A stretch of 64,000 bases of DNA, from NCBI GenBank assembly GCA_001247695.2, contig LGRX02029036.1:1-64000 (forward strand), in the 5' to 3' direction. A model generated the notes under the pieces. The model was not told the DNA's origin. It made no database searches and was given only the letters and a program-made list of their open reading frames with translations. Positions 16,951 to 44,518 of the stretch are shown here, piece by piece (positions within the stretch are counted from its first letter, which is position 1; the number at the start of each line of letters is the position of its first letter). This DNA is from Cymbomonas tetramitiformis. Lineage: Eukaryota; Chlorophyta; Pyramimonadophyceae; Pyramimonadales; Pyramimonadaceae. The position numbers were made by a program, and so were the translations under genes.

Positions 16951-17847
16951 ATGCCCCAACCCAAAAGACTCGCAGACCCAAAAGAACACGAAGCCTTTCT
17001 CAGCTCCTGCGAAAGATCAGACCAACTGTGCCCGGGTTTCTATCTCGCCCAACTTGCCGAAGAAATATACGCCACTCAGCAAATTATCGATTACTATCTC
17101 CAGCCCAGGAAGCGATTGCGCAGGTCTAAACGCATCGCGCAACGAAACACTACCCTTCATGCCAAAGAGGAAGCTGTCTCCTCTTCCGTGGCAGAAACCG
17201 ATAAGTGAACTCTTCCCTCAATTTTCGTGCGTCTGCTATACTTGCTTGCAAGTTCGATTCCCACACTGTCTCCAACCTGTCTCATCTTCTCGCTTTCTTC
17301 TTCCTGAGGGCACTCCCTCCTTCTTCATTCGTCCTCGCCGGTCTTTTCGACGACGCAGCTCAACATCAGAGTGGTGGCTAGCGCAACAGACTCCTGCCAC
17401 ATGTCTTGAATTAGAAAACTAGGCGTCTTAAAGGCGGCGCAATACGCGGACATCCATAAACATATTAGCGAAGGTAGTTCATCGTCGACCTCACGAAACT
17501 ATGCCAAGAGCATTCCTGCCACCATATACGGGGGCGGTCGTGTGGCATGGTCGGAGTTTTCTATTGTGGAACCCGATCCTGCTTCACCTTCTATCGATAA
17601 AGAAACTGCCCGCCAGTCCATTTCTTCTCTACACCAGTTCCTACAACAATTACGTCCGCTGGCACGTCGCACTGATTCTGGTTGGTTGCTATTATGTCCA
17701 CCTGACTATGCCGAATTTGTCGTGGAGGCCATACATTTGGTGCAAGGATGTTGTGGAGCGGTCGCACGAGTGAGATGGCCGAAATGCATAATCGATGATA
17801 TCCATGGAATCGCTATATCGGACTTCGGTCGCAGTGGAATCGCATGA
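16951..17847 (+). CDS. unassigned spliced gene next to Element I
   Basis: One block (16,951-17,208) reads CERSDQLCPGFYLAQLAEEI then a basic RKRLRRSKRIAQR, and ends VAETDK. A second block (about 17,430-17,847) reads YADIHKHISEGSSSS, SIPATIYGGGRVAW, LHQFLQQLRPLARRTDSGW, LCPPDYAEFVVEAIHL and ends just inside Element I (ISDFGRSGIA, stop 17,847). If Element I (17,829-29,096) is removed, the frame would read ISDFGYITS and stop. The element may therefore have replaced the last few codons. I recognise no family. Confidence 0.45.
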
Positions 17848-17849
17848 AT

Positions 17850-18975
17850 TCTTAGGACTTTGCGAAAAATATTTTTCAAAAAAAATATTTTTTCAGGGTG
17901 AAATCGCCAAAAAACCGTTGTTTTTAGCTTGTTTTGGCGTTCTACACCATTACGCGGGTGAGGAGTGCAGCGATTCGTGGAATTGAGGGGTTTCACATAT
18001 CACGTAATTAATCCTGATGGTCACCGCAATTTGAAATTTTGAAAAAAAATATTTTCTTGGCCCAAATCGGCCGAAAATCGCGTTTTTTTGCCTGTTTTGG
18101 CCTGTCGCGGGCCTGTTTTGGCGTTCTACGCCACTCCGCGCGTGTGGAGTGCTCATATTCGTGGGAATGAGGGTTTTCACATATCACCTAAGCACTCCTG
18201 ATGGGAATCGCAATTTGAAATTTTGGAAAAAAATATTTTTTGGGCCCAAATTTCAACAGAAATAGATTTTTTTTGCCTGTTTCGGCCTGTCGCGGGCCTG
18301 TTGTGGCGTTCTACGCCACTCCGCGCGTGTGGAGTGCACATATTCGTGGAAATGAGGGTTTTCACATATCACCTAAGCACTCCTGATGGGAATCGCAATT
18401 TGAAATTTTGGAAAAAAATATTTTTTTGGCCCAAATTTCAACAGAAATAGGTTTTTTTGCCTGTTTCGGCCTGTCGCGGGCCTATTTTGGCGTTCTACGC
18501 CACTCCGCGCGTGTGGAGTGCACATATTCGTGGGAATGAGGGTTTTCACATATCACCTAAGCACTCCTGATGGGAATCGCAATTTGAAATTTTGGAAAAA
18601 AATATTTTTTTGGCCCAAATTTTAACAGAAATCGATTTTTTTGCCTGTTTCGGCCTGTCGCGGGCCTGTTTTGGCGTTCCACGCCACTCGGCGCGTGCGG
18701 CGTGCACACAATCGTGGAAATGAGGGTTTTCACATATCACTTAAACACTCCTGATGGGACTCCCAATTTGAAATTTTGGGGAAAAATATATTTTTGGGCC
18801 CAAAAATTAACAGAAATCGATTTTTTTGCCTGTTTCGGCCTGTCGCGGGCCTGTTTTGGCGTTCCACGCCACTCGGCGCGTGCGGCGTGCACACAATCGT
18901 GGAAATGAGGGTTTACACATATCACTTAAACACTCCTGATGGGACTCACAATTTGAAAATTACCCAAATCGATTA
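17850..18975 (+). repeat. 184-bp subterminal satellite array, left end of Element I
   Basis: Six copies with a period of 184-185 bp (ATATCAC anchor at 17,997, 18,181, 18,366, 18,550, 18,734 and 18,919). Each unit contains GGCCTGTCGCGGGCCTG, an inner GGCGTTCTACGCC inverted repeat, and an A/T-rich AAAAATATTTTTT tract. Open frames across the array are an artefact of the repeat. Confidence 0.93.
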
Positions 18976-19118
18976 CAGAATCGTTGTTATGTTGGCATAT
19001 TTTGCGTGGGCCCTGTTGGGCGTTATGCACAACACGCCGAGAGTAGATGCTATTCAGCATGGTGTTGTTTGGGTTCTAAGATTCTAGTGATCTATCCTGC
19101 TGTGATAGTTATACTTCT

Positions 19119-22100
19119 TCACAACAACCCTAGAATGCGCTGGTGCTCAGCATCGGTCAACCTATAAAACTCCTTACCGCGGTATTTGCGTCTGGTCATT
19201 GTCACTTCCACACACACGACATGATGCGAATATGTCAGACATTTCTTGGATGTGTCTATGTAGTACTCCTCGCAGCTTTCCTCATCCGCCCACTCATAAA
19301 ATCGGCCTTCAACGACAAATTCCCCCGGTGTAGCATTTACGCCCTCCCCACCAGGCGAGTAGTAGTCGTCTCGCATCCCATCCGCGTTGATCACCTGCTT
19401 CACCTCGCTCAACGCCTTCACCAAATAGTAGGGGTGATTAGGATCGCCCCCCGACAGCCTTGCAAAAGTGTTTCCTCGTGCAACCTTCACACTCACGTCA
19501 TCACGGGCCTCCGCGACTCTTGTTCTGGTGCGCCGGGCATCAGATTCGGTTGCCTCCGTCAAGGTGAACTGCTCCCAGCTGTCCACGTGACTCCGGTACA
19601 GGCAACCCTCCGTGTCAGGTTGTGCCTTCGCGCACTGCGCGTAACAATAATCGCAATAGCATTGTCGGTCCCGCTTCAAGCCCACCAACAACCCCACCCC
19701 TGCACGCACCGAGTGTAACGCCAAAGTCCGGTCAACCGTGTCAAACCCAGGTCCAGAGATGTCCACGTCCTTGCCGTCAACCAGAAAGAAAAATCTTTGC
19801 CCGAACTGAACACCTCTGTCGCGAGCGCTATCCTTCGGCTTTTGCAACCTTTCCATGCAGAACTCGTACAAGCTTTTGGCGTCCAGTATTTTACAATGCC
19901 ATTTGTCGGTTGTGGACATCACCGCCAAGCTCGCCTCATGCTTCACCGCTACTCCCATCGCGTCTTGCTCACCTCGTGCATGTGACGTCTCAAAGAAGTT
20001 GCGCTGTGTCGGGATGCCAAGCCCTCGGGGCCACTCCGCCGACTCTTCCCGCCCGCTCTCCACCACGTCGGCAAATGCGGTTGCGCATTTGTTTTGTGCC
20101 GCACTACCATCCGCCCACTCATGCATGAATTTGGGGAGAGGTATACCTCTCTTCACGAAGTACTCACTGACGATAAGTTTCCTCATATGTTGGATACCTC
20201 GGTGGGAGTGCGGCAAGGTGTCGCTAATGAGGTAGATCAGGTCCTTCACTATTATTGGGTTGGCCTCGGTGGAAGTCTGACCATCCACGGAACCAACCGC
20301 GTGCCGCCATAACACACAACACAGCAGCGTTGCTTGCTTCACTATCCAGTGCAACGACTGAATCGCCCTGGGAATGTTCAGAGCGTGGTTCTCGCTGAAG
20401 TCAAACAATATGAGGCAGTGCCCCAAAGGCAAGCCCGCCTTGCACTTGTTGAACATTGTCATGGAGTGCGTGGCCATGAAACAGTGGTAGGCATACGGCT
20501 TCAAAAACCGACACGGTTGGGCAGCAGGCACACCGACCAACTTCTCCAACCTCCAACTCCCGTCCGCCGCTTTCCGCACAAACGTGCCCGAACACACACA
20601 ATTTGGGGACTCCCCTGGGGCGTGGCCAAGGAGCAGAGCTTGCAGTTTTGCAAGCAGCTCACCAGCAGTGGTCGTCTTTTGGACGAACTGCACCCGGTGC
20701 TTGTTCTTCCCGTCCTCGTCCACTCCGATATGAACGTTCTCGTAGGTGTGCCAGTCCAGCGTGGCAGTGTTGGAAACCGCCGCCGGACACAACGACCAGT
20801 TTTGCAGCCCCCCGCACCGTTTGCAAGAACCCTCCAAGCAGGGCATGTCGTGGTGGTCCTCGTGCTCTCCGTTCGACCGCTGTCTTGGACACAGCAGCGA
20901 TGCCGTGAAACCGGAGGTTGACCGTCCCACCTCCACTCGACCACACTTGAAGTCCGGGAAAGCAGGAAATGGTTTACGGGCAGACAGCCGTGCCCGAAGG
21001 CCTCCAACGCGAGGGCAACACGACGCGTCCGTGCACTTGCAGCCGGAGTGGCCCACCTCCTGGAAACGAGCATACGCCTCCACCACCAACCGCATATCCT
21101 CGTGGTACCTGCAGCAGCAGGAAATGGTGTCCCTTCGGGTGAGTCGTTGCACTTGCCTCGGCTTCCGAGTCTCAAAAGATCGGAGTTCGATCTTTTCGGC
21201 GGGAAACTTCTTCTTGAACTTGCGGAACACCTCCAACTGTGTCATTTCCAACCACTGCTTCGACACCTTCTCCACGCTTCCATCAATATGCCGCAGCTGG
21301 ATCACGTCCCGTTTACACGTGGACACCCGACTGATCCCAGCACTCAGCCAGAAGGCTTGGATCTTGTGGGTCAGCTCCGCGCTTATAGCACGGTTGGCCA
21401 TGTGCAGGTTTTCCAGGACCAACCCTGCCAGAAGACCGGCATTAAGCCGTTGCGCTGTCCCAAGGGCAGCTCCCAACAGCAAGTTGCGGTGCCCAACGAG
21501 TCCATCCTTCACCACCTTCACATTTATCCCTAAGATGCTTGCAACAGCACCCTCAACACCCTCCACGTCTCTGCCAAATACCATCGCGGCGCCCGCCATG
21601 CGCGTGGCAGCGTTCTGCCTGGAACCATATCCAGCTAGAGCGGCGAACGATGCCCGCAAGCTCGACACGATCGTTCCTCCTACGCGATCCTCCTCTGACA
21701 GAAATCTTAGCCGCACAGCTTCTATCTCTTCCGCGGGTAAGGTGCGCACAAAGTTCGAGAGCGCCCCACCAATAAGATGCGGCTTGTTCATGAAAACCTC
21801 CTTGAGCTTGTTGTTCCAGTGTTGTATACTTCCATGCGGCACCAGGCAACCCACCGCTGAGGCTCCTGCGGAGGCTGCTGTGGCGCCTAAGGGACCCAGC
21901 GTCGATTTCACCCGTGCTTGAGGCGCAGAGACCTCCACCGCGTCCTTGCCCAAGTCTAAACGCTTCCTAGAGCGAGCTTCCCTCCTTCGCGCATTCTGAT
22001 CAAGGCGCCTTTTCTTAACGGTACTGGTAGGTGTGGGCGCATTCCTCGCATTCCTCCCAACCCCACCTGCCTGCAGCACGCTAGGATCTCTGCTCGGTTT

Positions 22101-22298
22101 ATTCCCAGTTAACACATTCCATTTATCGACGAACTCCGAGATCTGCCCCGCTAGTTCTGTTGCATGATCCACATTCGTTGGTGCAATAGGAAACTCCAAA
22201 GGCAAGTTCCGCGCCATGTCGCCGAGGCTCATGAGCCATGGCAATACATCCACAAGGTAAGAAGGAGGAGGCATCCCTTTTCGAAAAACGCCACTCAT
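19119..22298 (-). CDS. Element I transposase (DDE/RNase H-like), 1059 aa
   Basis: A single open frame of 1059 residues starts at ATG 22298; an upstream TTG is less likely. The N-terminal third is basic and Ala-rich. The middle carries several Cys/His clusters, such as CKCTDASCCPRVGG and HHDMPCLEGSCKRCGG, that should bind zinc and DNA. The C-terminal half has the pattern of a large eukaryotic transposase family: ILFDFSENHALNIPRAIQS (Asp633), then ISDTLPH, then HEWADGSAAQNKCA (Asp730), then FETSHARGEQDAMG. These are the likely metal-binding acidic residues. I do not see the DIACQ-type motif typical of KDZ transposases, so I assign it only to a DDE-like group. It diverges from the dioxygenase gene and should act on the satellite ends in the nucleus. 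Confidence 0.75.
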   Translation of the reverse strand: MSGVFRKGMPPPSYLVDVLPWLMSLGDMARNLPLEFPIAPTNVDHATELAGQISEFVDKWNVLTGNKPSRDPSVLQAGGVGRNARNAPTPTSTVKKRRLDQNARRREARSRKRLDLGKDAVEVSAPQARVKSTLGPLGATAASAGASAVGCLVPHGSIQHWNNKLKEVFMNKPHLIGGALSNFVRTLPAEEIEAVRLRFLSEEDRVGGTIVSSLRASFAALAGYGSRQNAATRMAGAAMVFGRDVEGVEGAVASILGINVKVVKDGLVGHRNLLLGAALGTAQRLNAGLLAGLVLENLHMANRAISAELTHKIQAFWLSAGISRVSTCKRDVIQLRHIDGSVEKVSKQWLEMTQLEVFRKFKKKFPAEKIELRSFETRKPRQVQRLTRRDTISCCCRYHEDMRLVVEAYARFQEVGHSGCKCTDASCCPRVGGLRARLSARKPFPAFPDFKCGRVEVGRSTSGFTASLLCPRQRSNGEHEDHHDMPCLEGSCKRCGGLQNWSLCPAAVSNTATLDWHTYENVHIGVDEDGKNKHRVQFVQKTTTAGELLAKLQALLLGHAPGESPNCVCSGTFVRKAADGSWRLEKLVGVPAAQPCRFLKPYAYHCFMATHSMTMFNKCKAGLPLGHCLILFDFSENHALNIPRAIQSLHWIVKQATLLCCVLWRHAVGSVDGQTSTEANPIIVKDLIYLISDTLPHSHRGIQHMRKLIVSEYFVKRGIPLPKFMHEWADGSAAQNKCATAFADVVESGREESAEWPRGLGIPTQRNFFETSHARGEQDAMGVAVKHEASLAVMSTTDKWHCKILDAKSLYEFCMERLQKPKDSARDRGVQFGQRFFFLVDGKDVDISGPGFDTVDRTLALHSVRAGVGLLVGLKRDRQCYCDYCYAQCAKAQPDTEGCLYRSHVDSWEQFTLTEATESDARRTRTRVAEARDDVSVKVARGNTFARLSGGDPNHPYYLVKALSEVKQVINADGMRDDYYSPGGEGVNATPGEFVVEGRFYEWADEESCEEYYIDTSKKCLTYSHHVVCVEVTMTRRKYRGKEFYRLTDAEHQRILGLL

Positions 22299-23210
22299 AA
22301 GCGGCAAACATGTAAGGAGTCTACGGGCGAAAGCACGCCTTCAATTAACATATTTGCATGTCTGAACTTTTGCACGGACTCCCACATGCATCAGGAATAT
22401 GAATAGTCCTTTCACGAAAAGTATCCGTGGCGTAAGTATCGCCCCCAGGATGGAATGACTGTTCGATCGTGGGGGCGATTCGCCATTTCTTGATTTATCA
22501 CCCGGACATGTCAAATTTGACGTAGCGTGTGTATCGCACCCACGATCAACTGCTGCGTCGATCGTGCGGGCGATTCATAAATTTCGATTCAAGATTCGAT
22601 CGTGTAATGATTTATCACCCGGACATGTCATATTTCACGTGGCGTGTGTATCGCACCCACGATCAACGAATTCGTCGATCCTGCGGGCGATTCATAAATT
22701 TCGATTCAAGATTCGATCGTGTAATGATTTATCACCCAGACATGTCATATTTCACGTGGCGCGTGTATCGCACCCACGATTAGGTGATGAGCTGATCGGG
22801 AGGGCGATAATGCATATCAGATAATTTAATTGAAATTCCGTCACGACACCGTAAGCATGTCAGGCCAAAAGTCCGATACCTGCGCACAGGAAGCTCGAAT
22901 CGGCATGTCGGTTCGCCCACACGATCAAAAGATGGGATGATCGGGAGGGCGATAATGTATATCAGAGCCCTCCCCCGACATCTTACAACTGAACGAGACC
23001 CCTAAAAACCGTAAGCATGTCGGACCAAAAGTGCGATATCTGCTCACTGAGAGCTCGAGTGCTTGTAACGGTAACGCCAACCTGCGAACTGTACGCTATC
23101 TGCGACCATAGCACTTTCTTCGCGTGTTTTCGTTGCGCAATTGACGTTTGGATCGAGGACGAAGGCATTGACGGTTACTTTGGTATAAATTGGGAGCTAA
23201 TATTCTAATA
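22299..23210. promoter_or_regulatory. divergent promoter region of Element I with tandem repeats
   Basis: The 0.9 kb between the two divergent genes carries about 2.5 copies of a 117-bp unit (TGATTTATCACCC at 22,491, 22,608 and 22,725). Each contains CACGATCA and GATCGTG-type inverted words. A looser repeat of about 160 bp follows (CCGTAAGCATGTC near 22,850 and 23,010; GATCGGGAGGGCGATAATG near 22,797 and 22,940). No coding region is supported. A role as a bidirectional control or transposase-binding region is inference. Confidence 0.6.
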
Positions 23211-26200
23211 ATGAAGCAGAACAGATTCACCTATGCAGCAGCGGTTGGGGCAGCCGTGCCAAACGCTTTAAGGCGCAAGTCAGATCGGAAGTCAGAGCGG
23301 AAACTGGTGGAAGGTGTCGCCGAGAGTGAAGGAGTACCCGCCTGCAATGTGGAAGGGTGCCCCCATCCCGACGACTCGTTGGATCGAACGAGGCTGGCGT
23401 TGGCGACCTGCGACATGTGCTCCGACTCCTTCCACGTTGGGTGCGCGTCGCGCCAGCTCACACCGTCAGGGGAAAAGCGGTTTCCAGGGGAATGCGGGCG
23501 CTGCGGGATCCTGGCCCGCCTGTTCTGCCTCTTTTGCGGAATGGGTTCGGAGAATCACTTCCCAGTGCTTGTTACCTGCGCGACCTGCAAGCGCGGGTTC
23601 CACAAGAACTGCCGAAAATCCGGAGACAGCCACTCTTCAACATGCGGGCGCCATCTCTGCGTTGGACAGCCTCCTGTCAAATGGGCGTGCACGGCCTCGC
23701 CGAACCCTGATGATGGGCAGGCTGCTGCGGATACTGGTGCTGCTGCTGCCAGCGCGGAGAAGGCTGAGGGAATGGCAGCGCAGCAGCAGGCTGCTGCAAA
23801 CATGGACGAAGCTCCGTTACAGGAGGCGCCCACGTTCGCAGCCGTTGTTCGCGCAGAACCAGGAGGCGGGCTGGTGGAGAAGCATCAGTTGTCGCTAATT
23901 TCTAAGAAGGAGGCAGGCGATGCCGACGCAGCAGCACCGCCTGCAGCTGCCACCGCAGCAGCACCGCCTGCGGCTGCCACCGCAGCAGCACCGCCTGCGG
24001 CTGCCACCGCAGCAGCACCGCCTGCAGCTGCCACCACAGATGCACCGCCTGCAGCTGCCACCGCAACAGCACCGTCCGCAGCAGCACCGTCAAGACCCGC
24101 GCTCTTCCACGCGCCTGCTGTGAAGGCCCCGGTTTCACAGGACATGCCTGCTGTGGAGGCCCCTGATCCTCAGCACAAGTCTGCTGAGGATCAGCCAGTT
24201 GCAGAGCAGGGCACGGCTGCTGCAGAGACGCCTGCTGCCGTGGACGTGCCTGCTGTGGAGGCCCCGGTTTCACAGGACATGCCTGCTGTGGAGGCCCCTG
24301 ATCCTCAGCACAAGTCTGCTGAGGATCAGCCAGTTGCAGAGCAGGGCACGGCTGCTGCAGAGACGCCTGCTGCCGTGGACGTGCCTGCTGTGGAGGCCCC
24401 AGTTTCAAAGCATCAGTCCGCTGGGGAGGTGCCAGATACAGAGGAGGGCACAGATGCTGGAGAGACGCCTGCTCCTAAGGTGCCTGCTGCGGAGGGGGCA
24501 AAGAATGCGGAGGAGCAGCCTCACTTCACAAAAGGCGTGCTGCTGGACGAACACTGGAGGCATAGGCTTGCAGAGGGTGGGTATTGTGTCGGTCAATTGC
24601 AGGACACGATATCCGCTAAGGCTCTGGTTGCAGAGTTCCAGAAGGATTTGGCTCCAAACTCCGCGTTCAGAAACAACTTCAGGGCGTTCAAGAAGAAGGC
24701 CAATGGGGAGCTGGACACCCTGAAGGACCCGAAGAGGTGGATCGGGAACCTGGTGGAGGGCACGCCGTTTTACAAACGGTTTGAGCAGGTGGCTGAGGAC
24801 GTCGTGGCTGCGGTGGGGGACACGTTCGGGAAGCTGGAGGTGCCGAAAGGTGACATGGCGCGAACCGCCCTGCTCACCTACCCGGCGGCGTTGGTTCAGG
24901 AGAAGCATCGGGACTATGGTGCGCTGTCCGTCATGCTTGTCCTAACGGACATGTACCCGTTTACGGTGTACCCCCAGTCGCATAAGTTGGGGGATGGGGC
25001 CACCCCGGACACCCTTCGGCCGGTGACCTGCTTCCTGCCGGCAAAGAGCGTGGTGATCTTTGACGGCAGGCTAATCCACAACGCGGTGGAGATGCACGGT
25101 GGAACTTTTCGTGCGTCGGCGCACACCTACATTACAGCGGCGGAAGACCTCTTTCCGGAAAACACCACTTTTCCGGTCACTGGATCCGCCACTGTAACAA
25201 GGTCGCCCTGGGAGTTTGTGGTTGGGCATGACCCTTGCAGAAGAAAGCTTTATGACTCGCAAGGAATTGAGCGAGCCACTACCTCGGAGCCTTCCCAGGC
25301 AATGACAGCCCTGGAGCGGGAGATCGACTTCGCGAACGCGATCAATGAGGTTGACGAGGATATGGGGAGGAGTGTGGTGCTTGGGGAGCCACAGGAGTAT
25401 GATGCGTGCCTGGCGTTGCGGGAGCTTCTGAGGGATACGGTGGCTTTTGGGAGGGTTGTGTACCACGAACAGCACAAGGAGGTGGTCTGGATTGGTGGCC
25501 CCATCGTGAAGCCAAGGGAAGGTGCAAAACAAGGGACGGCATGCTGGGTATATGGGCCGTGGCTTGTGGCGGATCCAGTGGGGAGTAAGATTCCGCGGAG
25601 GAGGGTGCTGTTCCGCGCTACGGCGTTGAACAGCAAGCTAAGTTTGATAACACAAGCCAGGGATTGGGAGGTAGTATACTACGACAACATCAACGAGGAA
25701 GGAGGCTTTTTTGATGAGGCATACAATTCCTTTAAGCACGGTCTGGTGGAGGAGGGGGTGATTCGGGTGATGAAAAGTTTGCAGGCATATGGGAAGGGGC
25801 ATGCGGAGACGTTGACCGGCGAGTTGAAGCCGCCGGTGACTGCAGCAGCAGCAGCAGCAGCAGCAGAAGCGGAGAAGAAGGAGAAGGAGAAGAAGGAGAA
25901 GGCTGCAGCAGCGGAGAGGGAGAAGGAGAAGAAGGAGAAGGCTGCAGCAGCGGAGAGGGAGAAGGAGAAGAAGGAGAAGGCTGCAGCAGCGGAGAGGGAG
26001 AAGGCGAGGAAAGAGAAGGCTGCAGCAGCGGAGAGGGAGAAGGCGAAGAAAGAGAAGGCTGCAGCAGCGGAGAGGGAGAAGGCGAAGAAGCTCCGGGCGG
26101 AAACCCTGTCTGGGATAAAGATGGCATTGGCAATTCCTCGGGGGACTAAGCGTGGACGGGGAGGTAGCCCCGCGGGCACTGAGACCCCTGTTTGGGGTAA

Positions 26201-27650
26201 AGGACCGGAGCCAGGCACCAGGGTGAAGGCGCGGAGGACAGGCGCTGAGGGGAACATCTCCGAGACTCTCCCCGCGTTCGGCTCCACTCAGAGAGTGCCT
26301 GAGGTTTGTGACCCACTGCAGTCTTTGAGACGAACGCGCTCGCAGCAGGCAGCGGCGGCAGCAGTGGAGGGTGGCTCCGACAGGAAACGCAGGAGCCCTT
26401 GTCCAGTTCATGGCCCTCGTGCTGCACAGTCGGAGCCGGACGAATTGTCGGACACGGACACGGAGCAGGCAGAAGCAAGCATACCAAGAGGGCCGTTGTC
26501 TGCGCGAGCCCCGCTGGCATTGGAGGAGCTGGATACGCAGGTGGGTACTCCTTCAGGGCCTTTCGAGCACTCCCCTGGGGGAGTGCTCGATCCCCTAAAC
26601 CTCTTCAACGATTCAGTGGGCCGCAACACGCCCATTGACAGCCGGATGCATCATCATAGTGCAGACGCCGCGGAGCTGTTTAACAGGGAGCGCGCGGCGA
26701 CGGGGAGCCTGACGACGGACTTGGCCAGGCCACAGTCGGAAGGTTGGGAGGGGCGAAGGGAGGTGACACCGAGCTCAGCTGAACCTCCGGTGTTGGCGTC
26801 GAAGGCCCGTCAGGCGGAGATTGCCGAGTTGGAGGCTCAGGTGAGGATCCAGGCCTTGAAGATGCAGTTGGCGCAGGGGGCAGCCGCCTTGGCCCAGGCA
26901 GGGATTGCGTCGGCTGCCTCCCCAGGGCCGGAGGTAGGTGCCACGGCAGCTGCCACGGCAGCAGCACCGCAAGCGGCGGCCACGGCAGCAGCATCTCCTG
27001 CCGCGGCCACCGCAGCAGCACCGCCTGCAGCTGCCACCGCAGCAGCACCGCCTGCGGCTGCCACCGCAGCAGCACCGCCTGCAGCTGCCACCGCAGCAGC
27101 ACCGCCTGCAGCTGCCACCGCAGCAGCACCGCCTGCGGCTGCCACCGCAGCAGCACCGCCTGCAGCTGCCACCACAGATGCACCGCCTGCAGCTGCCACC
27201 GCAACAGCACCGTCCGCAGCAGCACCGTCAAGACCCGTGCTTTTCCACGCGCCCAGCTCCCCTGGTGAGACTGCTCCGCCGGAGATGCCATATGAGTGGG
27301 TGTATGGTGGGGTTTATTATAACTCGGATAGCGTACCTCCCCAACATCACGGGCGCGCCCTCGCCGCCCTCCCCCAGTACCCGCCCATGATGCTGGGGCT
27401 GGACCCGTATGCTGCGCAGACCCCGTATGCGCAGACCTATCGGGCACCCCACGGCCGTGCGGCCCATGATGCCATGCCAGGTTATGCGTTGGCGGTGCAG
27501 CAGCAGTACCCTGAGCAGCTGGTCACGATGCCTTTACGGCAGGCGATGAGGCTGAATGCAGCCTTGTCAAGGCAGCTTCCGCCTGAGTGGTCCTCACAGC
27601 CGCGGCAATCATGGGACCCGTTTTATGGACCTGGCATGCGCCGCCCCTAG
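23211..27650 (+). CDS. PHD-finger / 2-oxoglutarate-Fe(II) dioxygenase protein of Element I, 1479 aa
   Basis: The start is ATG 23211 (MKQNRFTYAAAVG). Residues about 50-165 hold two PHD-like zinc fingers (CDMCSDSFHVGC from Cys67; CATCKRGFHKNC from Cys126). A long Ala/Pro-rich linker follows, with 8-residue repeats and a 46-residue duplication. Residues about 440-650 form a double-stranded beta-helix dioxygenase with the iron triad His566-x-Asp568 (EKHRDYG) and His623 (RLIHNA), and the 2-oxoglutarate Arg634 (GGTFRASAHTYI). Next come a Lys/Glu/Ala coiled coil (about 880-965) and a low-complexity tail with the same Ala/Pro repeats. The enzyme would use Fe(II), O2 and 2-oxoglutarate. TET/JBP-type base oxidation, AlkB-like repair and protein hydroxylation are all possible; PHD fingers favour a chromatin role. 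The subfamily is unproven. Confidence 0.82.
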   Translation: MKQNRFTYAAAVGAAVPNALRRKSDRKSERKLVEGVAESEGVPACNVEGCPHPDDSLDRTRLALATCDMCSDSFHVGCASRQLTPSGEKRFPGECGRCGILARLFCLFCGMGSENHFPVLVTCATCKRGFHKNCRKSGDSHSSTCGRHLCVGQPPVKWACTASPNPDDGQAAADTGAAAASAEKAEGMAAQQQAAANMDEAPLQEAPTFAAVVRAEPGGGLVEKHQLSLISKKEAGDADAAAPPAAATAAAPPAAATAAAPPAAATAAAPPAAATTDAPPAAATATAPSAAAPSRPALFHAPAVKAPVSQDMPAVEAPDPQHKSAEDQPVAEQGTAAAETPAAVDVPAVEAPVSQDMPAVEAPDPQHKSAEDQPVAEQGTAAAETPAAVDVPAVEAPVSKHQSAGEVPDTEEGTDAGETPAPKVPAAEGAKNAEEQPHFTKGVLLDEHWRHRLAEGGYCVGQLQDTISAKALVAEFQKDLAPNSAFRNNFRAFKKKANGELDTLKDPKRWIGNLVEGTPFYKRFEQVAEDVVAAVGDTFGKLEVPKGDMARTALLTYPAALVQEKHRDYGALSVMLVLTDMYPFTVYPQSHKLGDGATPDTLRPVTCFLPAKSVVIFDGRLIHNAVEMHGGTFRASAHTYITAAEDLFPENTTFPVTGSATVTRSPWEFVVGHDPCRRKLYDSQGIERATTSEPSQAMTALEREIDFANAINEVDEDMGRSVVLGEPQEYDACLALRELLRDTVAFGRVVYHEQHKEVVWIGGPIVKPREGAKQGTACWVYGPWLVADPVGSKIPRRRVLFRATALNSKLSLITQARDWEVVYYDNINEEGGFFDEAYNSFKHGLVEEGVIRVMKSLQAYGKGHAETLTGELKPPVTAAAAAAAAEAEKKEKEKKEKAAAAEREKEKKEKAAAAEREKEKKEKAAAAEREKARKEKAAAAEREKAKKEKAAAAEREKAKKLRAETLSGIKMALAIPRGTKRGRGGSPAGTETPVWGKGPEPGTRVKARRTGAEGNISETLPAFGSTQRVPEVCDPLQSLRRTRSQQAAAAAVEGGSDRKRRSPCPVHGPRAAQSEPDELSDTDTEQAEASIPRGPLSARAPLALEELDTQVGTPSGPFEHSPGGVLDPLNLFNDSVGRNTPIDSRMHHHSADAAELFNRERAATGSLTTDLARPQSEGWEGRREVTPSSAEPPVLASKARQAEIAELEAQVRIQALKMQLAQGAAALAQAGIASAASPGPEVGATAAATAAAPQAAATAAASPAAATAAAPPAAATAAAPPAAATAAAPPAAATAAAPPAAATAAAPPAAATAAAPPAAATTDAPPAAATATAPSAAAPSRPVLFHAPSSPGETAPPEMPYEWVYGGVYYNSDSVPPQHHGRALAALPQYPPMMLGLDPYAAQTPYAQTYRAPHGRAAHDAMPGYALAVQQQYPEQLVTMPLRQAMRLNAALSRQLPPEWSSQPRQSWDPFYGPGMRRP
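23922..24110 (+). repeat. 24-bp coding repeat, first block
   Basis: Tandem copies of a GC-rich 24-bp unit (GCAGCACCGCCTGCAGCTGC then CACC) encode ATAAAPPA-type repeats. The final part, from CCACCACAGATGCACC, is almost identical to the end of the second block 3.1 kb downstream. Confidence 0.9.
24118..24396 (+). repeat. 138-bp in-frame tandem duplication
   Basis: Two near-identical copies encode APVSQDMPAVEAPDPQHKSA followed by a shared 26-residue stretch, with a third partial copy after them. The duplication preserves the reading frame. Confidence 0.9.
26990..27245 (+). repeat. 24-bp coding repeat, second block
   Basis: Eight or so copies of the same 24-bp unit as at 23,922, ending in the same variant units and the same PSRP-LFHAP coding sequence, with only a few differences. 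This suggests copying or gene conversion within the gene. Confidence 0.9.
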
Positions 27651-28059
27651 ATATGGTTAAATTGGAGCCTGTGCATCAGCCTAAAAAGCATGTGAAGCTG
27701 TGAATCAGCCTAGAAGAGATATATTCCGAAAAGAGATTTTCTCTCACACACTTAAAAGCATGTAAAAATAAAGCTATTTTTATTGAAATGCTATGCAGTG
27801 TGCCTATTGGCAATGAGATGTGAAGAGCAAAAGAAATGCAAATGTTTCCTGAAAAGTGTTAGGTTATGGGTCCAACACGCTTCCATTGTGCTCCAGCTAA
27901 TCGTTATCCAAATAACAAATTATATTCATGTTTTGATAATGACAGGCTTGTGTTCCTCGTGATGGCAACTCGTATGCAATTACAAATTTCCAACTGAAAC
28001 AGGCCTGGAGACCACGAATATGCACACTTCGCACGCATGAGTATATAATATACGTACAT
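27651..28059. other. 3' flank of the dioxygenase gene
   Basis: AT-rich. AATAAA-like AAAATAAAG occurs near 27,764 and could serve polyadenylation. No further gene is seen before the right satellite array. Confidence 0.4.
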
Positions 28060-29075
28060 GTAGAACGCCAAAACAGGCCCGCAACTTGCCGAAACATGCC
28101 AAAAAATCGATTTCTGTTGAAATTTGGGCCCAAAAATATTTTTTTCCGAGAATTTCAAATTGCGATTCCCATCAGGAGTGCTTAGGTGATATGTGAAAAC
28201 CCTCATTTCCACGAATATGTGCACTCCACACACGCCGAGTGGCGTAGAACGCCAAAACAGGCCCGCGACAGGCCGAAACAGGCAAAAAAATCGATTTCTG
28301 TTGAAATTTGGGCCAAAAATATTTTTTTTCCAAAATTTCAAATTGCGATTCCCATCAGGAGTGCTTAGGTGATATGTGAAAACCCTCATTTCCACGAATA
28401 TGTGCACTCCACACACGCCGAGTGGCGTAGAACGCCAAAACAGGCCCGCGACAGGCCGGAACAGGCAAAAAAATCGATTTCTGTTGAAATTTGGGCCCAA
28501 AAATATTTTTTTTCCAAAATTTCAAATTGCGATTCCCATCAGGAGTGCTTAGGTGATATGTGAAAACCCTCATTTCCACGAATATGTGCACTCCACACAC
28601 GCCGAGTGGCGTAGAACGCCAAAACAGGCCCGCGACAGGCCGGAACAGGCAAAAAAATCGATTTCTGTTGAAATTTGGGCCAAAAAAATTTTTTTTTCCA
28701 AAATTTCAAATTGCGATTCCCATCAGGAGTGCTTAGGTGATATGTGAAAACCCTCATTTCCACGAATATGTGCACTCCACACACGCCGAGTGGCGTAGAA
28801 CGCCAAAACAGGCCCGCGACAGGCCGAAACAGGCAAAAAACCGCGATTTTCGACCGATTTGAGCCAAAAAAATATTTTTTTTCAAAATTTCAAATTGCGG
28901 TGACCATCAGGATTAATAACGTGATATGTGAAACCCCTCAATTCCACGAATCGCTGCACTCCTCACCCGCATAATGGAGTAGGACGCCAAATCAAGCTAA
29001 AAACAACGGTTTTTCGGCGATTTCACCCTGAAAAAATATTTTTTTGGGAAAATGAAAAAAAGTTGTATTTTTTAA
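28060..29075 (-). repeat. 184-bp subterminal satellite array, right end of Element I
   Basis: Five to six copies of the same 184-bp unit in the opposite orientation (anchors near 28,186, 28,369, 28,553, 28,738 and 28,921). The outermost unit on each side is the most diverged and matches its opposite partner best, as expected for paired element ends. A degenerate unit lies at 27,940-28,080. Confidence 0.93.
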
Positions 29076-29309
29076 ATTCCTGCGATTCCACAGCGATTAC
29101 ATAACATCATAGAAATATTCCATTATAGTTGTGACACATACTTAAGCCATTCTCACTCGTGCGACGGCTGTGTGGACGCGATAAAGTCATGTTCGTTCTT
29201 CCTTTGGTTTCCTTTCCTACGCACGCCCTTTCCTTCCTTCCGGTCCTTTTTTACATCGATATGTTGGCCCTCCACTTCTCATCGACACACAGTGACGTTT
29301 ATTTTGCAG

Positions 29310-31194
29310 GTACCAGCTTCGATCGCACAACGTCGGCAACATTTCCGATCCGTTCGTCACCGAAATTATCCGCAAGTGTCCAGTTTGTGTCATCAACAAG
29401 CGGCCCAAGACCATCAAATCGGTCACCGCCATACGTGCTTCTCAGCTTAAGCGAGAAGAAAGTTGGGACTACACGGATTCCAACGAGGGCTCCGACTCTA
29501 CTCTGCACGTCGTTAAGAGCCCAGGAGGATGGCAACGAGCGCACAACGTTAACACCGAAAAGGTGCGGGGCTCCCTTATGTGCATAGCGAGATATGTGCA
29601 TTTCATGTTTGTTCTCAGTCGTCATCATTTTATTTGTGCTTGCAGCTGTACGTTGTGGCTGCCTCCATGATGGAAGCATGGGATGAGTACGACGCCCCTA
29701 CAATTGTCCGTTGTGACAATGGTCCTGCCTTCGCTGCTCACTTGCTTAAGGTCCGTTAACAGTCTACCTTTTCTCACGTTCGCATATCTTGCGCTTTGTG
29801 TATCGTTCCAATTTGCAGGCCTCCTGTCGCCATGGCACTACTTACCGCAACTTTCACGATGCCGTTCCGCGTGTTTCTTCTATCCCTTTGTCACCACTAC
29901 CATGGCACCCAAAAAACGACGACGAGTGTTTCTTCCTATCCAGTGCCATGGAGGCTGGTTGGGATGAACACACAATTCTATCCCTGCTCCATGATCCTTT
30001 ATTCCTTGTGGACACGGGTTAGTATCTTTTATAACCACGGCCCCTTACCCCGAAGCTTGCTTTTCTATGCCACTATACATTCTCTATCTTTGTGTTCACT
30101 TTGTGTGCTGTGGGTCGGTCTTTCTCAAGATCATCGCCGCCGTCTACAAAGTGAACATCCAGTTCATCCCCCCTCGTGATCCTGCTGCCAACGGTCGCGT
30201 TGAGCGAGCACATGCCCCTCACCATGCTCGGGTCCGATCTCTTTTGACCCAGTTCCCAAGTCTCCACCCGTTCGAGGCGTGCAAGATGAGCATCGCAATC
30301 GCCAACAAGCAGTTGTATGTTCCTACCGGAATTTCTCCCTTCGAATTCCGGTATGGGCGAGCTCCGGCATCCTGCTTGGCCACTCAGCTTGGGGAGACGC
30401 CATCTGCTTCTGCTGACGCTTTAACCCCAACCATCATAAATATCGAGGACCGTGTCGCTCTAGCTCACGCTGTTCGTCAAGAGGCTCAAGCTCATCAAGC
30501 CAAATACCAGGATCGTTATGATGGGAAGCAAGTTGGTAAGTCGACTACTTTGCAGGTTGGCGATGCCGTCTTGCTCCGGCGTACTGGTCCAGACCGTAGC
30601 TCAATCGCCACCTCCAAGCTCCTCGGCTTTGCGAACACCGGCCCCTACATTTTGTCGGAATTTGTGGGGAAGACCGCAGCCCGCCTTCGTGATGTCCTGT
30701 GGGGCAACTCCCTTCCGGATACCGTGAAGGTTGAGCGCTTATCCCTATTCCGCCGCCGTGGTACCACGCCTGTGCCCCAGTTTGAAGAGATTCTTCAATC
30801 TCAAGACAAGCCTAAGCTGGATGCTGCATACAGTGCCCAGGAGCGTCGCTTACAAGAACTTAAAGCTGACCTTGCTTTACGTCCCGATGCTCCAGTGTGC
30901 ACCTCTTGCAAGAAAAAGGTGGACCGCCTGCATGCCAAGAATTGTTGCAAGCCTTGCTACACAAGGTTGGCCAATGCCCGCGCTAAGGTGCGCACTCCTC
31001 ACCTCACTGCTCAATTCCTTGGGACTACCGACCGTGCGCGCGTGCTACGGTTCGCGCTGCAGACTCCGTATGTATGCACCTTCCATCCACTGACTTGTTG
31101 ACTTTTTTATCTTGCTTGGGTTTCACAGCAGGCTAAACGCACTGCAGAAGATCCAGCACCTCGTCCTCGTGGACGCCCGCGCAAGGCCACATGA
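29310..31194 (+). pseudogene. retroelement-like integrase with introns, zinc finger and AT-hook
   Basis: Several exons are separated by introns of about 70-110 nt. Exon 29310-29562 holds the end of an integrase zinc-binding domain (HNVGN...IIRKCPVC). Exon 29646-29750 holds core sequence ending VRCDNGPAFAAHLL. Exon 29819 to about 30,017 is an unusual insert (FHDAVPRVSSIPLSPLPWHP). Exon 30130 to about 31,067 resumes the core (IPPRDPAANGRVERAH, YVPTGISPFEFRYGR) and a C-terminal domain (LQVGDAVLLRRTGP), then a CTSCKKK...CCKPCY zinc-finger-like segment. A last piece encodes PRPRGRPRKAT, an AT-hook. The first catalytic Asp region is not recognisable and two junction phases do not match, so the copy is probably dead. 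No reverse transcriptase is present. It resembles Ty3/gypsy-type or related integrases. Confidence 0.65.
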
Positions 31195-32863: not shown

Positions 32864-32897
32864 AACGACCATATCGCAAAAATGAGACACGCGGGCG
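32864..32897 (+). repeat. Element II left terminal inverted repeat
   Basis: Begins AACGACCATATCGC and is preceded by the GCTT duplication. It is followed by ATGAGAAAAAAATGAG, a partial echo of the TIR's own ATGAGA word. Confidence 0.9.
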
Positions 32898-33660
32898 TAA
32901 ATGAGAAAAAAATGAGAAAGCATTAAATTGTCTGCCAAATTGGTTTTTGGGGTTCTGAATGACAAATATTAGGGTTAATTTGAATAGTCCTTGAAGGAAT
33001 TTCGAAAAATCTGGTTTTTGACTCTTCAAAGTAGCCACGCGAGTCACGCGGGCGGCAAGAAAACGGGAAAGGTGGAAGTATCGTGTAAGGTGTGGAAAGT
33101 TATGATTTTGCCTTATGTTTGTGAACGAAATGTTAGATTTTTGCACTATTAGAATATGTAATATTTTGACATTTCCGAAAATGCAACTATTTGCTTACAT
33201 GGGAGAGATCCAGCAGATTTATGGCCCATTTTAGGGTGTTTGGAGGGTCACGTACTAAAATTCTTCTCATCGGGCGAAAGTGAGCAGCAAAGGAGATATT
33301 TTCAAAAGCTATTGTGCTGGAAAAGTTGTTCGGGAGTGAAACCAACCAGGGGTGATGCTCCCTCAGGCTTCATGTGACCCAACATGGGCATTCAGCGGGT
33401 AAATTTGCCCTGAACAGGCTATTCCAGCACGATTCTCGGCAGCTAAGAAGACCGGTTAACTGTATTATTTCGCGGGAAACATTAAAATACGTCAGAGGCA
33501 AAATATCCCGCGGCAGGTGTTCCTACAGGTGTGCTGCACATGGATATATCGGGGCGTCCAAGGTTCAGGGTTTTAGGGTATATGTTGGAGGAGTCGTAAC
33601 CGGAGGTCGTTTGCACACACCTGCGTTCGTGACATAGAACCACAACCCGCACCTTAGACT
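32898..33660. other. left subterminal region of Element II
   Basis: AT-rich and without a supported gene. Unlike the right side it shows no 163-bp tandem array, so the element's subterminal regions are asymmetric. Confidence 0.6.
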
Positions 33661-33672
33661 ACCTACACCAGT

Positions 33673-34173
33673 ATGGCCAATATTGGAATATTGCAGTATT
33701 GGATATGGCCTTTCGATACTTTTACGTTTCGCGACTGCCAGTTACAACAAGCCCAATGGGTTCCTGAAGACCCTTTAATTCTCCGCTTGTGGCAGCAAGC
33801 GCGGGAACAAGCAGAAGAAGACTGGGAGGACTTCGGGCAACATGCAGTTAATCTCAGGACCTATCACTGGTGGAGTTTTTGGCCGATGTACGTCCACGGC
33901 CGTAGATCCAGCGAAAGGTTCGGTGTGAGGCATCTCGTGTACTGGTATGAGGGCGGGTGGATCTACCACCGATACTCAGATTTGGAGTGGCGGGCCTGGC
34001 GAAATAGAAACCGCTACAGCGAAACAACGCACGGTGCCCTGACAGAGCTGGAAAGCGATCTGCTGCAAGAAGATGATAGGAGATGCGCAGTTTGCGGGCG
34101 TATGTTAAGAACCTGCACCCTGGCGCGCATATTTGATGCTAGCGCGTGCAATGAGGAGACGTATGCTTGGTAG
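33673..34173 (+). CDS. Element II small Trp/Tyr-rich protein, 166 aa
   Basis: An open frame from ATG 33673 gives a 166-residue protein, very rich in Trp, Tyr and Arg (NLRTYHWWSFWPMYVHGRR, DLEWRAWRNRNRYSE). It ends with a possible half zinc ribbon, CAVCGRMLRTC. It faces the 3' end of the transposase gene, which is convergent from the right. I recognise no family. Its position inside the TIRs makes it a likely accessory gene of the element. Confidence 0.55.
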   Translation: MANIGILQYWIWPFDTFTFRDCQLQQAQWVPEDPLILRLWQQAREQAEEDWEDFGQHAVNLRTYHWWSFWPMYVHGRRSSERFGVRHLVYWYEGGWIYHRYSDLEWRAWRNRNRYSETTHGALTELESDLLQEDDRRCAVCGRMLRTCTLARIFDASACNEETYAW

Positions 34174-34310
34174 CTAACACTTATGTCACGTGACTGTACA
34201 CAAATAAACCGTATATTTACATGTATGAAAAACAATAAGTTTCACGCCGTGTTGCCATTGTAATCTAGTGTGCGTGCCACGAGGAATGAATGAGGCTGTG
34301 TTGCTTACCT

Positions 34311-37300
34311 TCACCTGTCCAACGCCTCGGAGGCCAAGTTTTCCCTGGCCACCTTCAGAAGTTCTGCCTTTTCAGGTCCTCCTGGAACTCCGCCGACAGC
34401 AGGTTTGCCAGGAGGTTCGTCCCAGCAAGTCAGGATCTCGCTCGCATCGAAGTCGTACCAACCTGTCACTTTCGGAGCGGCTCTCCGGAAGGCGTTCTCC
34501 GCGAACAAGCTGTTCAAGTCAGAGAAGGTTTTGCTTGTTCTCCTCGTTCTCGGCATAAGCAGAGGCGCACATGGAAGCCAAAACCCCCACTTCACTCTGT
34601 TCGTGTTCAGATCCACCTCCAAGACCTCCACGAAATGCATGGGCATGGACACGGCGTTGTTCCCAGGCATGCGGATAGTAAAGCTGCAGCCGTCGTTGCC
34701 CGCGGCCACCGTAACTGCGAAACTTTTGCCCGCACTCTTCGCCAGCATGTCGATGGTGTAGTCCGTAGGAAGGTTACGGTAGGCCAACGGTATGTCGTCG
34801 TCCGGGTCGTCCGAGTCGTCCTCGTCGTCCTCGTCGTCCTCGTCGTCCTCGTCCATCGAGACGCCTGCGAACTGTCCAGTGGCCGCCTCCGGGCGATGCG
34901 CGTTCTCCACCTGCTCCGCAATCTGATTTGCATCCTCGAAAAAGCAATCGTCGTCAGGAGCGAAGCTGTCCGTTATAAGGGCGCCTGTCGGACCGATCAC
35001 AGAGGCCGCTCGGAATAGCACTCGTCCCTTTTCACGACCCCGCGCTTGTCGAGACTTCCCGGGTGGAGACTTGCTCCCTGGGGACGCCTTTGCCAATGGC
35101 GAACTGCGTGCACGCTTGTCGCTTGGAGCTCGTGCTTGATCTCCCTGTGGCGCTGCAGGAGCAGGGCATCCTCGGCCACCTGCGCCTGGCCCTCGTGCTG
35201 CCGGTGCCTGTGGTCGAGTAGGCATAGCTTCGTTGGTTTGCGGGCCTCGCGCAGCAGCTCCTTCTCGTCTTGCCTGTGTAGTGGCTGTTACAGCCTCGAG
35301 TGATGGCGCCGCCCGCGCAGCTCCGCCGGCTTCGGAAGTTCTTGCAGGCAAGGCCTGCTCCGTACCCGGCGACGCATCCTCCCCGGTTTCCTCACCTGTC
35401 GTCGCTCGGCTTTTTTTTCGAAGGACTCTGAGTTGTTCGTGGTGGGCCTTTCGGGCGACATCCGTCGCTTCAAATAAGGCCTTCGCCAACGGCTCCTTGA
35501 GTGGGCGTTCAGGAAGTTCAACTCCCAGGTGGTGCAACGCTGCTTTACACTCGGCCACCGTGTACCTGCAATGGCAGCCGACGCGTAAGACATACAGCTA
35601 AGACTCAGGTAGGCATAATACTTGCAAGACCTAACAATGAAATCGAGGTGCTCGCAACCGACCAACGGGACGAACCAAAAATCGACGGACTCGACGTCCC
35701 TCGCTTTCTCCACGCACTTGCGCACGATCTCTTGTGGAGGTTTCCGCGGAAGGTCCTTGCTTAACACGTTGCGACCATCGGATAACACTTCGAACTGTTC
35801 GGGCATCGTCCGTTCTGGCACCTCCTCCTGCACTGGCTTCTTGTGCCAGGCGTTCTCGTAAAGCTCCTTCAAATCCACAGGAGCCTGTGGGGTCGGCTTC
35901 GGTCCAGCCCAGACATCGTAGTCCTCGGCGGTCTTGGGCAAGGGAAAGTACCCGAGCAACGTGTCCAGCGTGTCACTTGGAATACGGTAGTGGATGTAGT
36001 CGCACATGCGACTGAAAGCAGTGCGAGTTTCCCTCTCTTCCTTCGGGTCTAGCGGCTTCACCCCTTCTAACGTGGGGCTGCTGTCGAAAGCTGGGTAAGT
36101 TTTCATTACCTCCAGGCCCTTACGGAGATCCTCATCCACTCCGTCAGGCATGTGGTTTGCGTATTGTTCTCCAAACTTGTACTTCAGCCGTGTAACACCA
36201 TCCACGTCCTTCTCGAAGTGCATCAGGTGTGTACGCCTGACTTTCCCAGAATAGCCTTCAAACTTTGGGTTTATGTGCGGCTCCAGCCAAGCCTTGAAGT
36301 CCAACTGTTGGCCTTGTACGTCCGTGATTTTGGTGAACTTCTTCACTGGCCAGCTTCGTAACCAGGCAATCCACGATTCCAGCGTCAACAGCCACACTCC
36401 AGATTTGCGCGCGTCTTTCCCAAATATGAACATCTTGATGAGTCCAAACCAACCGTCGCAGTCGTTATGGGTGTGCGCGACCATCAGACGGTGGAAGACA
36501 ACCACGTTGTAAATATTGTAGTGCACCAACAACGCACAAAACGCGAACGTGTTCTTGTTCCAGTTTTCTGAGCCACCATCCAGCTGCAAATGAAGCTCCT
36601 TCCGGAAGTAGCGCTTGCCCGCGCGACCTTGTGCGGTGTAGTGCAACAAGTTCCACAGTGTCGTGAGCAGCATGTTTGCACCCTTAGCCCCGCTCCAAGG
36701 GAGCCCAACGGAAAATAGAAGCAACGAGCCATGAAGTATCGTGAGCTGCAGGTGTAGGTTAAAGAAATGCTGTTTCTTCTCGCTGATGCCCTTAACTTGA
36801 TGCGGGGCATGCGGAACAACCGTGTTCTGATTTGCCGCGCCGTCCGCCGCTATGGAGTCGATCCGACCGTCGGGGTCAGAACCCTCCTTCCGCCTGAGGT
36901 CATAACACGTGCGTTGCAACCTGTGAATGTAGTCGTGTCGCGCGAAACGAGCAGAATAGGCGTCCCAGCGTGCAGGTTCGCGACCCTGTTGTCCAAGAAG
37001 CTGAGCCCTCTCTGCACCCAGATCGTCACATGTCGTGCAGATTCCGGACACCTCCACCTTCGCCCTTACCGTTATGTCTCGAGCCTTGAGCAGGTTTTTC
37101 ACGTATATTTTGAAGGTTTCAGCACATACTGCCCACTGGTCCTCTGTGTCGAACTTATACAAGTCGTACTGCACACCATAATCGATGGGTGGAATTTGGC
37201 GCGCACCACTTACCGGCATCCTCTGTGGTGCTCCTTTCAACATATTCGAATCCGCCCACTCGCGGAACACCTCCTCGTGGTAGGAAATCGTCGTCACCAC

Positions 37301-37711
37301 CGCCTTCGCCACAGGGAATGCAGTTGTTGCCGGTAGTTCCCCCTTCTCTTCAAGGATAAGTGCCTTATATCGCTGGTACGAGCTCCTGGGGAGCGCCCAC
37401 ACTGTTCTGAACGCCTCCTCGCAGATCTCCTTTTCGAAAAGCTTCAGGGTGCCAATAACACGCTCTCCAGACTCGCGCTTCACGATCGCTTTGCGCATAG
37501 TTGCCATAATGTAAGACTTGAACTCAGTTTGGCCCATGCGCTCCTTATGGTCCATATTGCCCTTGAATGTGCTGAACAAGAAACTGCAGTTCCGATCGCA
37601 CCCACAGCTGAAACCGCCCTCGCATAGTCCGGGAATATTGGACTGTGCAATTTGAAGAGTCTTCTGCTTTGACAATCTCCTGCCGCTGGAGTTGCTGCTA
37701 TTGCTGCTCAT
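34311..37711 (-). CDS. Element II transposase, DUF7869-like, 1114 aa
   Basis: Two exons, 37711-35622 and 35565-34311, are joined through a 56-nt intron (GTATTA...ATTGCAG) in phase 2 to give 1114 residues. The N terminus has a Cys cluster (CEGGFSCGCDRNC). The catalytic-like core contains AADGAANQN (Asp290), LHLQLDGGSENWNKN (Asp378) and VVFHRLMVAHTHNDCDGWFG (Asp419). This is the order and wording of the DUF7869-type domain found in transposon-derived proteins of many eukaryotes. The C-terminal exon is Ala/Pro/Lys-rich with an acidic run (repeated DDE) and ends in a globular-looking segment (VKWGFWLPCAPLLMPRTRR). It is transcribed away from the palindromic array. The transposase role comes from family resemblance plus the TIR setting. 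Confidence 0.78.
35566..35621 (-). other. 56-nt intron of the Element II transposase gene
   Basis: Donor CAA|GTATTATG and acceptor CCATTGCAG. Phase 2 on both sides gives SCKYTVAECKAAL across the junction. Without splicing, the first frame would run into unrelated sequence. Confidence 0.8.
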
Positions 37712-37779
37712 CTTGCGAGACGCGTACCGTTGTTATGCTGTTTCATATTTGAACGCTTACCTGATATGAGGGTCCTTGT

Positions 37780-38812: not shown

Positions 38813-38865
38813 GAGTTTCGCAGGGTTAAACAGAGCCCGTTGTGCAGCATACAAAACTTTTCGCA

Positions 38866-43430: not shown

Positions 43431-43850
43431 GTAGGTATGCTTAATAAGCCAGCCAGCAAACGAACTGAGAGATCGCACCTGCACTGCCATCGTATATACC
43501 GGCCTGTACAATGAATAATACCGCGCCCGCAAGAAAACCCCTAACCCTGGGTGCTTTGACTGTTCAAATAAAGACTGTATATTTTCATAGCACCAACGTC
43601 TTATCTGGTAGCATTCTTCGTGCCTTTTGTCGGTTTTTGTTGTTTTTTTGTGCTACGCACACAGTTACAGTCTCGTGCAGACCTACACCCCCTAGATTTA
43701 AGGTTGGTGCCACCGCTTTTAACATTAAAGCCTCCCATTCTCGGGGTGTATGTAAGATATGAACAAAAGTTTCTTCAGACTCAGTTTGTTTGGAATGACT
43801 TTGACGTATCCAATATGAAAACATCGTCATTATCACCACTTTCAACAAAT
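43431..43850. other. 3' flank of the partner gene
   Basis: No further gene supported. A CAATAAAGAC-like AAATAAAGA near 43,566 could be a polyadenylation signal. Confidence 0.4.
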
Positions 43851-44490: not shown

Positions 44491-44518
44491 CTTTTTAAAA
44501 AATGAGAATATAATGAGA

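Follow-up and report, generated by a model that had tools for sequence, protein, structure and literature searches.

In a stretch of 64,000 nucleotides from the chlorophyte Cymbomonas tetramitiformis (contig LGRX02029036.1, positions 1 to 64,000, assembly GCA_001247695.2), here called the window, we found a transposon of 11,415 bp (~11.4 kb; 17756..29170) that carries a gene for a predicted dioxygenase beside the gene for its predicted transposase. In our numbering the window lies on contig C19752 of the 852-Mb assembly G000, and other copies of the element are named by contig (C) or locus (L). The two genes are divergent, apparently intronless long open reading frames (ORFs), one for the transposase (19119..22298, minus strand, 1059 aa from ATG) and the other for a PHD-like / 2-oxoglutarate-Fe(II) (2OG-Fe(II)) dioxygenase (23211..27650, plus strand, 1479 aa from ATG). 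They are enclosed by subterminal arrays of a 184-bp unit, where the left array (17930..18958, plus strand, 5.6 units) pairs in inverted orientation with the right one (28060..28991, minus strand, 5.1 units). An earlier note on this DNA had described two divergent genes within inverted 184-bp arrays, and both ORFs and both arrays were indeed found. A further array of a 117-bp unit (22491..22808, 2.7 units) lies between the divergent genes and is a possible regulatory region.

The ends at 17829 and 29096 proposed in that note proved wrong and were rejected, since copies of the element stay homologous out to 17756 and 29170, which are flanked in the window by the target-site duplication TGTG (17752..17755 and 29171..29174). 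Outside the 184-bp arrays the inverted homology is patchy and closes in a clear common terminus of the form GAGC..GCTC, with GAGCGGTCGCACGAG on the left and GAGCCGTCGCACGAG on the right (complement). The left terminus of the window is GAGCGGTCGCACGAGTGAGA (17756..17775, plus strand) and the right terminus occupies 29151..29170 (minus strand), its outermost base being different, as it reads CAGCCG..., a form present in two of the 17 right ends that were read, the other 15 having GAGCCG.... In the 10 copies whose end regions were compared, identity with the window starts at 17746-17756 on the left in nine and stops at 29169 on the right in six, and in the remaining copies the end concerned lay outside the stretch fetched. 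Together with the window and 10 more, a total of 21 copies were examined for ends; both ends were recovered in 14, and in the other seven one end lay outside the fetched stretch. A perfect 4-bp target-site duplication flanks 13 of these 14 copies, corresponding to 12 of 13 independent sites, and the extent 17756-29170, with ends common to copies in unrelated flanks, is assigned because of these duplications: TGTG, CAAT (twice, one site on two contigs), GGTG, CCCT, AAGG, TGGG, AGGT, GTTT, GGGG, TCAA, again CCCT, and CCGG. The exception is the copy on C11890, which has GGCC on one side and CCCC on the other. The shared CAAT site belongs to C20405 and C20404 (L009/L010 and L025/L026), where the element has identical flanks, and represents either a segmental duplicate or two haplotypes.

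The element is very abundant in its own assembly, and its copies are near-identical. In a search with 1001 bp of the transposase gene at least 40 places matched, all 40 matches listed having 100% identity (743 first-look candidates), a recurrence far beyond chance, and a 433-aa region of the dioxygenase was 98-100% identical over the full query and without stops in each of the 97 places scored (1033 candidates); both counts are lower bounds. Such near-identity would therefore reflect recent multiplication. The coding part was compared between the window and 20 copies picked for contig room rather than at random. Of these 21, 17 keep a transposase ORF of the full 1059 aa and 11 a complete dioxygenase ORF (1455-1496 aa), while both full ORFs and both ends occur together in six (the window, C20405, C16220, C20404, C6466 and C11890). 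Among the 11 full dioxygenase ORFs no replacement is listed at any of the four catalytic positions described below. The variants among these copies comprise 6 synonymous and 9 replacement changes in the transposase (17 copies) and 28 synonymous and 56 replacement changes in the dioxygenase ORF (11 copies), 33 of the 56 falling within residues 181-305, beside or in repeats; among copies so similar they are weak evidence on selection. A search for further copies with the same ends, which the earlier note had proposed, thus found them, so the two-gene unit is not a single occurrence, and with shared ends, duplications and further copies of the unit the proposal of a transposon carrying a PHD-like / 2OG-Fe(II) protein is upheld. 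Copy L034 (C6703:16249-25049) is unusual in that its match to the element ends at the window equivalent of 22267 and is followed by an AT-rich ORF of 723 aa, which resembles a virus primase/helicase by eye alone.

The dioxygenase protein has two PHD-like fingers, long low-complexity stretches, the 2OG-Fe(II) core and a conserved C-terminal region that belongs to no known family. The finger pair (23379..23648, plus strand, approximate bounds) matches PF00628 in two stretches, and this region scanned alone scored 24.6 bits against a cut-off of 24. The core (24594..25112, plus strand) is PhyH-like: scanned alone it matched PF05721 over positions 20-211 of the 213 in the profile, with 20.3 bits and an E-value of 7.5e-4 against a cut-off of 22, and it contains a YPxSH motif that we take to be PhyH-like. 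The iron/2OG-binding set given in the earlier note was confirmed on the plus strand, H566-x-D568 being encoded at 24906..24914 (H566 at 24906, D568 at 24912), H623 at 25077..25079 and R634 at 25110..25112. The C-terminal conserved region (25199..25830, plus strand, approximate bounds) is 34% identical in a second family of the element, which we call family B as opposed to family A of the window, and has no Pfam match in either family.

Family B was found with a contiguous codon pattern that excludes the codons of family A, a search that returned 182 places (95 + 87, of which 100 were listed) and none in the reversed control. Three family B stretches, on C2880, C2985 and C446, were read in part, and the transposases of C2880 and C2985 are placed by codon pattern alone. 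In these two the dioxygenase gene is where it was expected, next to the transposase motif, and runs the opposite way; the C446 stretch holds a copy of a different element inside and, as far as it was fetched, no dioxygenase. Over 455 aligned codons, a piece of the C446 transposase shares 71% identity with that of family A (tblastn gives 66%); the three aspartate-containing blocks LFDFSENHALNIPRAIQSLHW, HEWADGSAAQNKC and RNFFETSHARGEQDAMGVAVKHEA are unchanged. The dioxygenase core has diverged to 37% identity over 216 codons, yet H-x-D, H and R are all kept, so that the H-x-D...H...R set of the 2OG-Fe(II) (double-stranded beta-helix) superfamily is invariant across both families, and PHD-like fingers precede the core in both. 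The ratio of nonsynonymous to synonymous divergence (dN/dS) between the families is 0.45 (C2880) and 0.40 (C2985, 128 codons) in the core and 0.58 in the C-terminal region, at a dS of ~1.2-1.5 that is near saturation; dN is 0.67 in the core and 0.22 in the transposase, where dS is saturated. In C2880 and C2985 an array of 103-104 bp also lies between the genes, upstream of the dioxygenase gene, and a terminal array of 174 bp lies on its 3' side. In C446 the terminal unit recurs once, inverted, on the opposite side (score 301 against a shuffled maximum of 23), which suggests that the family B arrays are inverted at both ends. Homology with the family A arrays was rejected for the terminal (score 19, shuffled maximum 28) as well as for the intergenic array (score 14, shuffled maximum 24); the two-gene layout has thus been kept though the arrays themselves are unrelated.

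From the blocks that are invariant between the families we propose a transposase with three catalytic aspartates (DDD). The candidates, all on the minus strand and numbered in the TTG-started ORF, are D636 in LFDFSENH (20400..20402), a block identical in family B, D733 in WADGSAAQNK (20109..20111), and D782 in TSHARGEQDAMG (19962..19964), for which E773 and E780 are alternatives. Similar motifs presumably occur in uncharacterised animal proteins as well. No Pfam, PHROG or NCBIfam match of the transposase rose above chance (best Pfam match SidM_N, E 0.25), and its single-sequence structure model was too poor for a fold search (pLDDT, the predicted local distance difference test, 35.5). A relationship between P0001 and the DUF7869 protein encoded in the neighbouring element, described below, was also considered and rejected (BLASTP E 2.0). 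The earlier note had remarked on the lack of a motif of the KDZ transposases, with which the 4-bp duplications are consistent: target duplications of 8 bp for Zisupton and Dileera and of 7 bp for Kyakuja are given by Kojima (2025, PMC12730594), and KDZ is excluded here because the duplication has 4 bp instead of 7-8. By resemblance the transposase looks Sola-like. Sola elements are described in PMC10741241 as having 4-bp duplications, a DDD transposase and terminal inverted repeats of 11-1124 bp, with some elements longer than 15 kb; the present element shares with them the duplication length, in the 13 of 14 copies mentioned above, and a DDD transposase is predicted for it from the reading of motifs.

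Taken together, we marginally favour the explanation that this is a DNA transposon, probably mobilised by its own predicted DDD transposase, and that its second gene specifies a predicted dioxygenase with zinc fingers and a 2OG-Fe(II) site, an enzyme that would probably act by oxidising a silencing mark carried by the DNA or chromatin of the element. Because the structure is two-ended and has arrays, the transposase would read the repeats, binding the inverted 184-bp arrays and cutting at the GAGC termini for cut-and-paste movement. The PHD-like pair may dock the dioxygenase on chromatin, at a histone tail, whereupon the Fe(II)/2OG site would oxidise a methyl mark, either a methylated base or methyl-lysine, and so keep the divergent promoter region open; the role we infer for the enzyme would be anti-silencing. 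A bolder version, which we regard as doubtful, is that a lineage of 4-bp-duplication (Sola-like) transposons built its own chromatin eraser, a PHD-guided non-TET dioxygenase by which a silencing mark is taken off the lineage's own copies, with a core evolving ~3x faster in amino acids than the transposase, and that this contributed to the rise of one family to perhaps hundreds of near-identical copies.

Nine of the 124 matches listed for DNA_methylase (PF00145) in the genome extend over nearly the whole profile (E < 1e-26), and 5-methylcytosine (5mC) is a possible target because C5-methyltransferase genes are present. Histone methyl-lysine is equally open as a substrate, and the presence of PHD fingers speaks for it. 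Of the 124 PF00145 matches listed (6837 first-look candidates, 123 scored), most cover only profile positions ~57-126, within ORFs that reach 2398 aa. They look as though a very abundant repeat contained a stretch similar to a methyltransferase, and are reminiscent of the dinoflagellate retrotransposons that carry DNMT (PMC5890265).

A number of observations weigh against an anti-silencing dioxygenase. Among rare variants between copies (the window and 19 others, without L034 and with masking of repeats), CpG>TpG/CpA occurs at 9 of 1016 CpG positions and C>T/G>A at 17 of 3128 other C/G positions, a CpG ratio of ~1.6; this mild excess speaks against a heavy 5mC load, the copies are too young to say more, and therefore no mark on the element is demonstrated. 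The full dioxygenase ORF is missing from 10 of the 21 family A copies, and copy L047 has lost much of the gene. Neither of the two family B dioxygenase genes that were read is intact: the linker joining the fingers to the core contains a stop in C2880, and in C2985 the reading frame changes within the core. The PF00628 score drops to 14.6 bits in the whole protein, under the cut-off of 24, and to 6.9 bits in family B, so that of the two PHD-like fingers claimed in the earlier note the match stands for the region alone and not for the protein as a whole. No Pfam family other than PhyH is listed up to E 10 for the core scanned alone; the PhyH match is below threshold there, scores 18.8 bits in a longer piece of the protein (cut-off 22), is not among the Pfam matches of the whole protein, and has no counterpart in the family B core, which matched nothing in Pfam. 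A profile comparison of the core with ten PhyH proteins of the genome gave an hhalign probability of 1.3, the single-sequence structure model was too poor for a fold search (pLDDT 42.2), and the profile of families A and B against PDB gave a weak match to DhiD (8zyb; E 0.011, 42 residues around PGSHK...VHCG), which is a lead rather than a placement; PDB searches with single sequences returned none or one chance match. The predicted dioxygenase fold thus relies on motif conservation together with the sub-threshold PhyH match. The earlier note had held that firm placement of the core in a housekeeping family would speak against its reading; no firm placement was obtained. Searches with PHROGs returned nothing, those with NCBIfam and PADLOC gave chance-level matches (atpD 0.12, PglX 0.053, Cas9 0.027), and comparisons with viral contigs, prokaryote contigs and phages were uninformative.

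Other explanations of the second gene can be set beside an anti-silencing enzyme. It may be an accessory transposition factor whose fingers and C-terminal region bind the arrays or target chromatin, with a dioxygenase activity that is secondary or serves to hydroxylate the transposase. In favour of such a factor, both families combine two divergent genes with a terminal array and an intergenic one, and a C-terminal region is conserved besides the core. A mere binding protein, on the other hand, would not need the four catalytic residues that are kept at 37% identity; we consider an accessory factor unlikely. PhyH-type enzymes act mostly on small molecules, which counts against oxidation of a silencing mark, and the gene could instead be a captured passenger of host metabolism, namely a PhyH-like small-molecule hydroxylase without benefit to the element. 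Here the PhyH match as the sole Pfam match of the isolated core, the 22 PhyH-family matches in the genome (the dioxygenase of the element is not among them; one of 14 control genomes matched) and the frequency of broken dioxygenase copies agree with a passenger. However, none of the 10 genome PhyH proteins compared with the core is close to it (phmmer against these 10 gave a best E of 0.014). The core dN/dS of 0.40-0.45 between families, with PHD-like fingers before the core in both, also speaks against a passenger, which we consider very unlikely.

The earlier note had also suggested kinship with TET/JBP enzymes, which was not borne out. Tet_JBP (PF12851) is absent from the Pfam matches listed up to E 10, of which filters drop most above 0.1, and a search of the genome found nothing, but none of the 14 control genomes matched either, so that absence from the genome is not shown. 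The protein is therefore not recognisably TET/JBP as judged by its sequence, and a very divergent TET/JBP enzyme beyond the reach of the Pfam profile seems highly improbable, even though it would have the same H-x-D/H/R set and some TET/JBP-like proteins of fungal transposons are far from known TETs, one group reaching only an HHpred E of 1.4 to CMD1 and the PU and PE types being divergent (PMC12730594). What stands against it, besides the silent Tet_JBP searches, is the PhyH match found instead, along with what we assume to be a PhyH-like YPxSH motif.

Capture of such enzymes is nevertheless known from other transposons. Kojima (2025, PMC12730594) reports that 11 lineages of DNA transposons in fungi have taken up TET/JBP genes, with Kyakuja, Dileera, Zisupton, hAT7, IS3EU, PHISTA, EnSpm, ESTA, Plavaka and Helitron as carriers; the same text contains no occurrence of Sola, PHD or PhyH. 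Like these, the present element is a DNA transposon in which a gene for a predicted 2OG-Fe(II) dioxygenase accompanies that for the transposase; unlike them, its dioxygenase is not recognised as Tet_JBP, is fused to PHD-like fingers, and comes with 4-bp duplications. Among 4-bp-duplication transposons, Sola2-Fanzor1 of Dictyostelium/Polysphondylium likewise has a captured accessory gene, which is Fanzor1 and not a dioxygenase, so the cargo differs from that of Sola as known there, and Sola2-Fanzor target sites are AT-rich (both from PMC3627910) whereas those found here contain G and C. Retrotransposons carrying DNMT occur in dinoflagellates and charophytes and are a similar case of mobile elements acquiring DNA-modification genes; those are retroelements with a writer (methyltransferase), in contrast to the DNA transposon with a predicted oxygenase described here (PMC5890265). 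Our literature search, by titles and abstract openings with partial coverage, found no paper on a Sola-like transposon that carries a PHD/2OG or PhyH-like dioxygenase. If our interpretation is true, oxygenase capture by DNA transposons would extend beyond TET/JBP enzymes, with a separate enzyme family doing the same job by means of a built-in chromatin reader, and new DNA or histone demethylation chemistry could be uncovered. Near-identical copies are abundant, some with the gene and some lacking it, so that the anti-silencing idea can be put to a direct test.

The window holds further features outside the element. A second two-gene transposon occupies 32864-44552, with 35-bp terminal inverted repeats (97%) and the 4-bp duplication GCTT; it encodes a DUF7869 protein at 35288-37711 (minus strand, E 4.5e-18) with divergent ORFs from 39129 (plus strand). 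A 42-bp array separates its genes, and another array, of 163 bp, lies close to its right end. The 807-aa DUF7869 ORF of this transposon is also present within the family B copy on C446 (L079). Host-like genes lie at 2809-4791, with pieces of a pfkB carbohydrate kinase (E 2.8e-10) and a KDPG/KHG aldolase (E 8.4e-18). Between the two transposons, an ORF at 30067-31101 with weak matches to the rve_3 integrase core (E 0.064) and DUF2797 (E 0.0028) is possibly a retroelement remnant.

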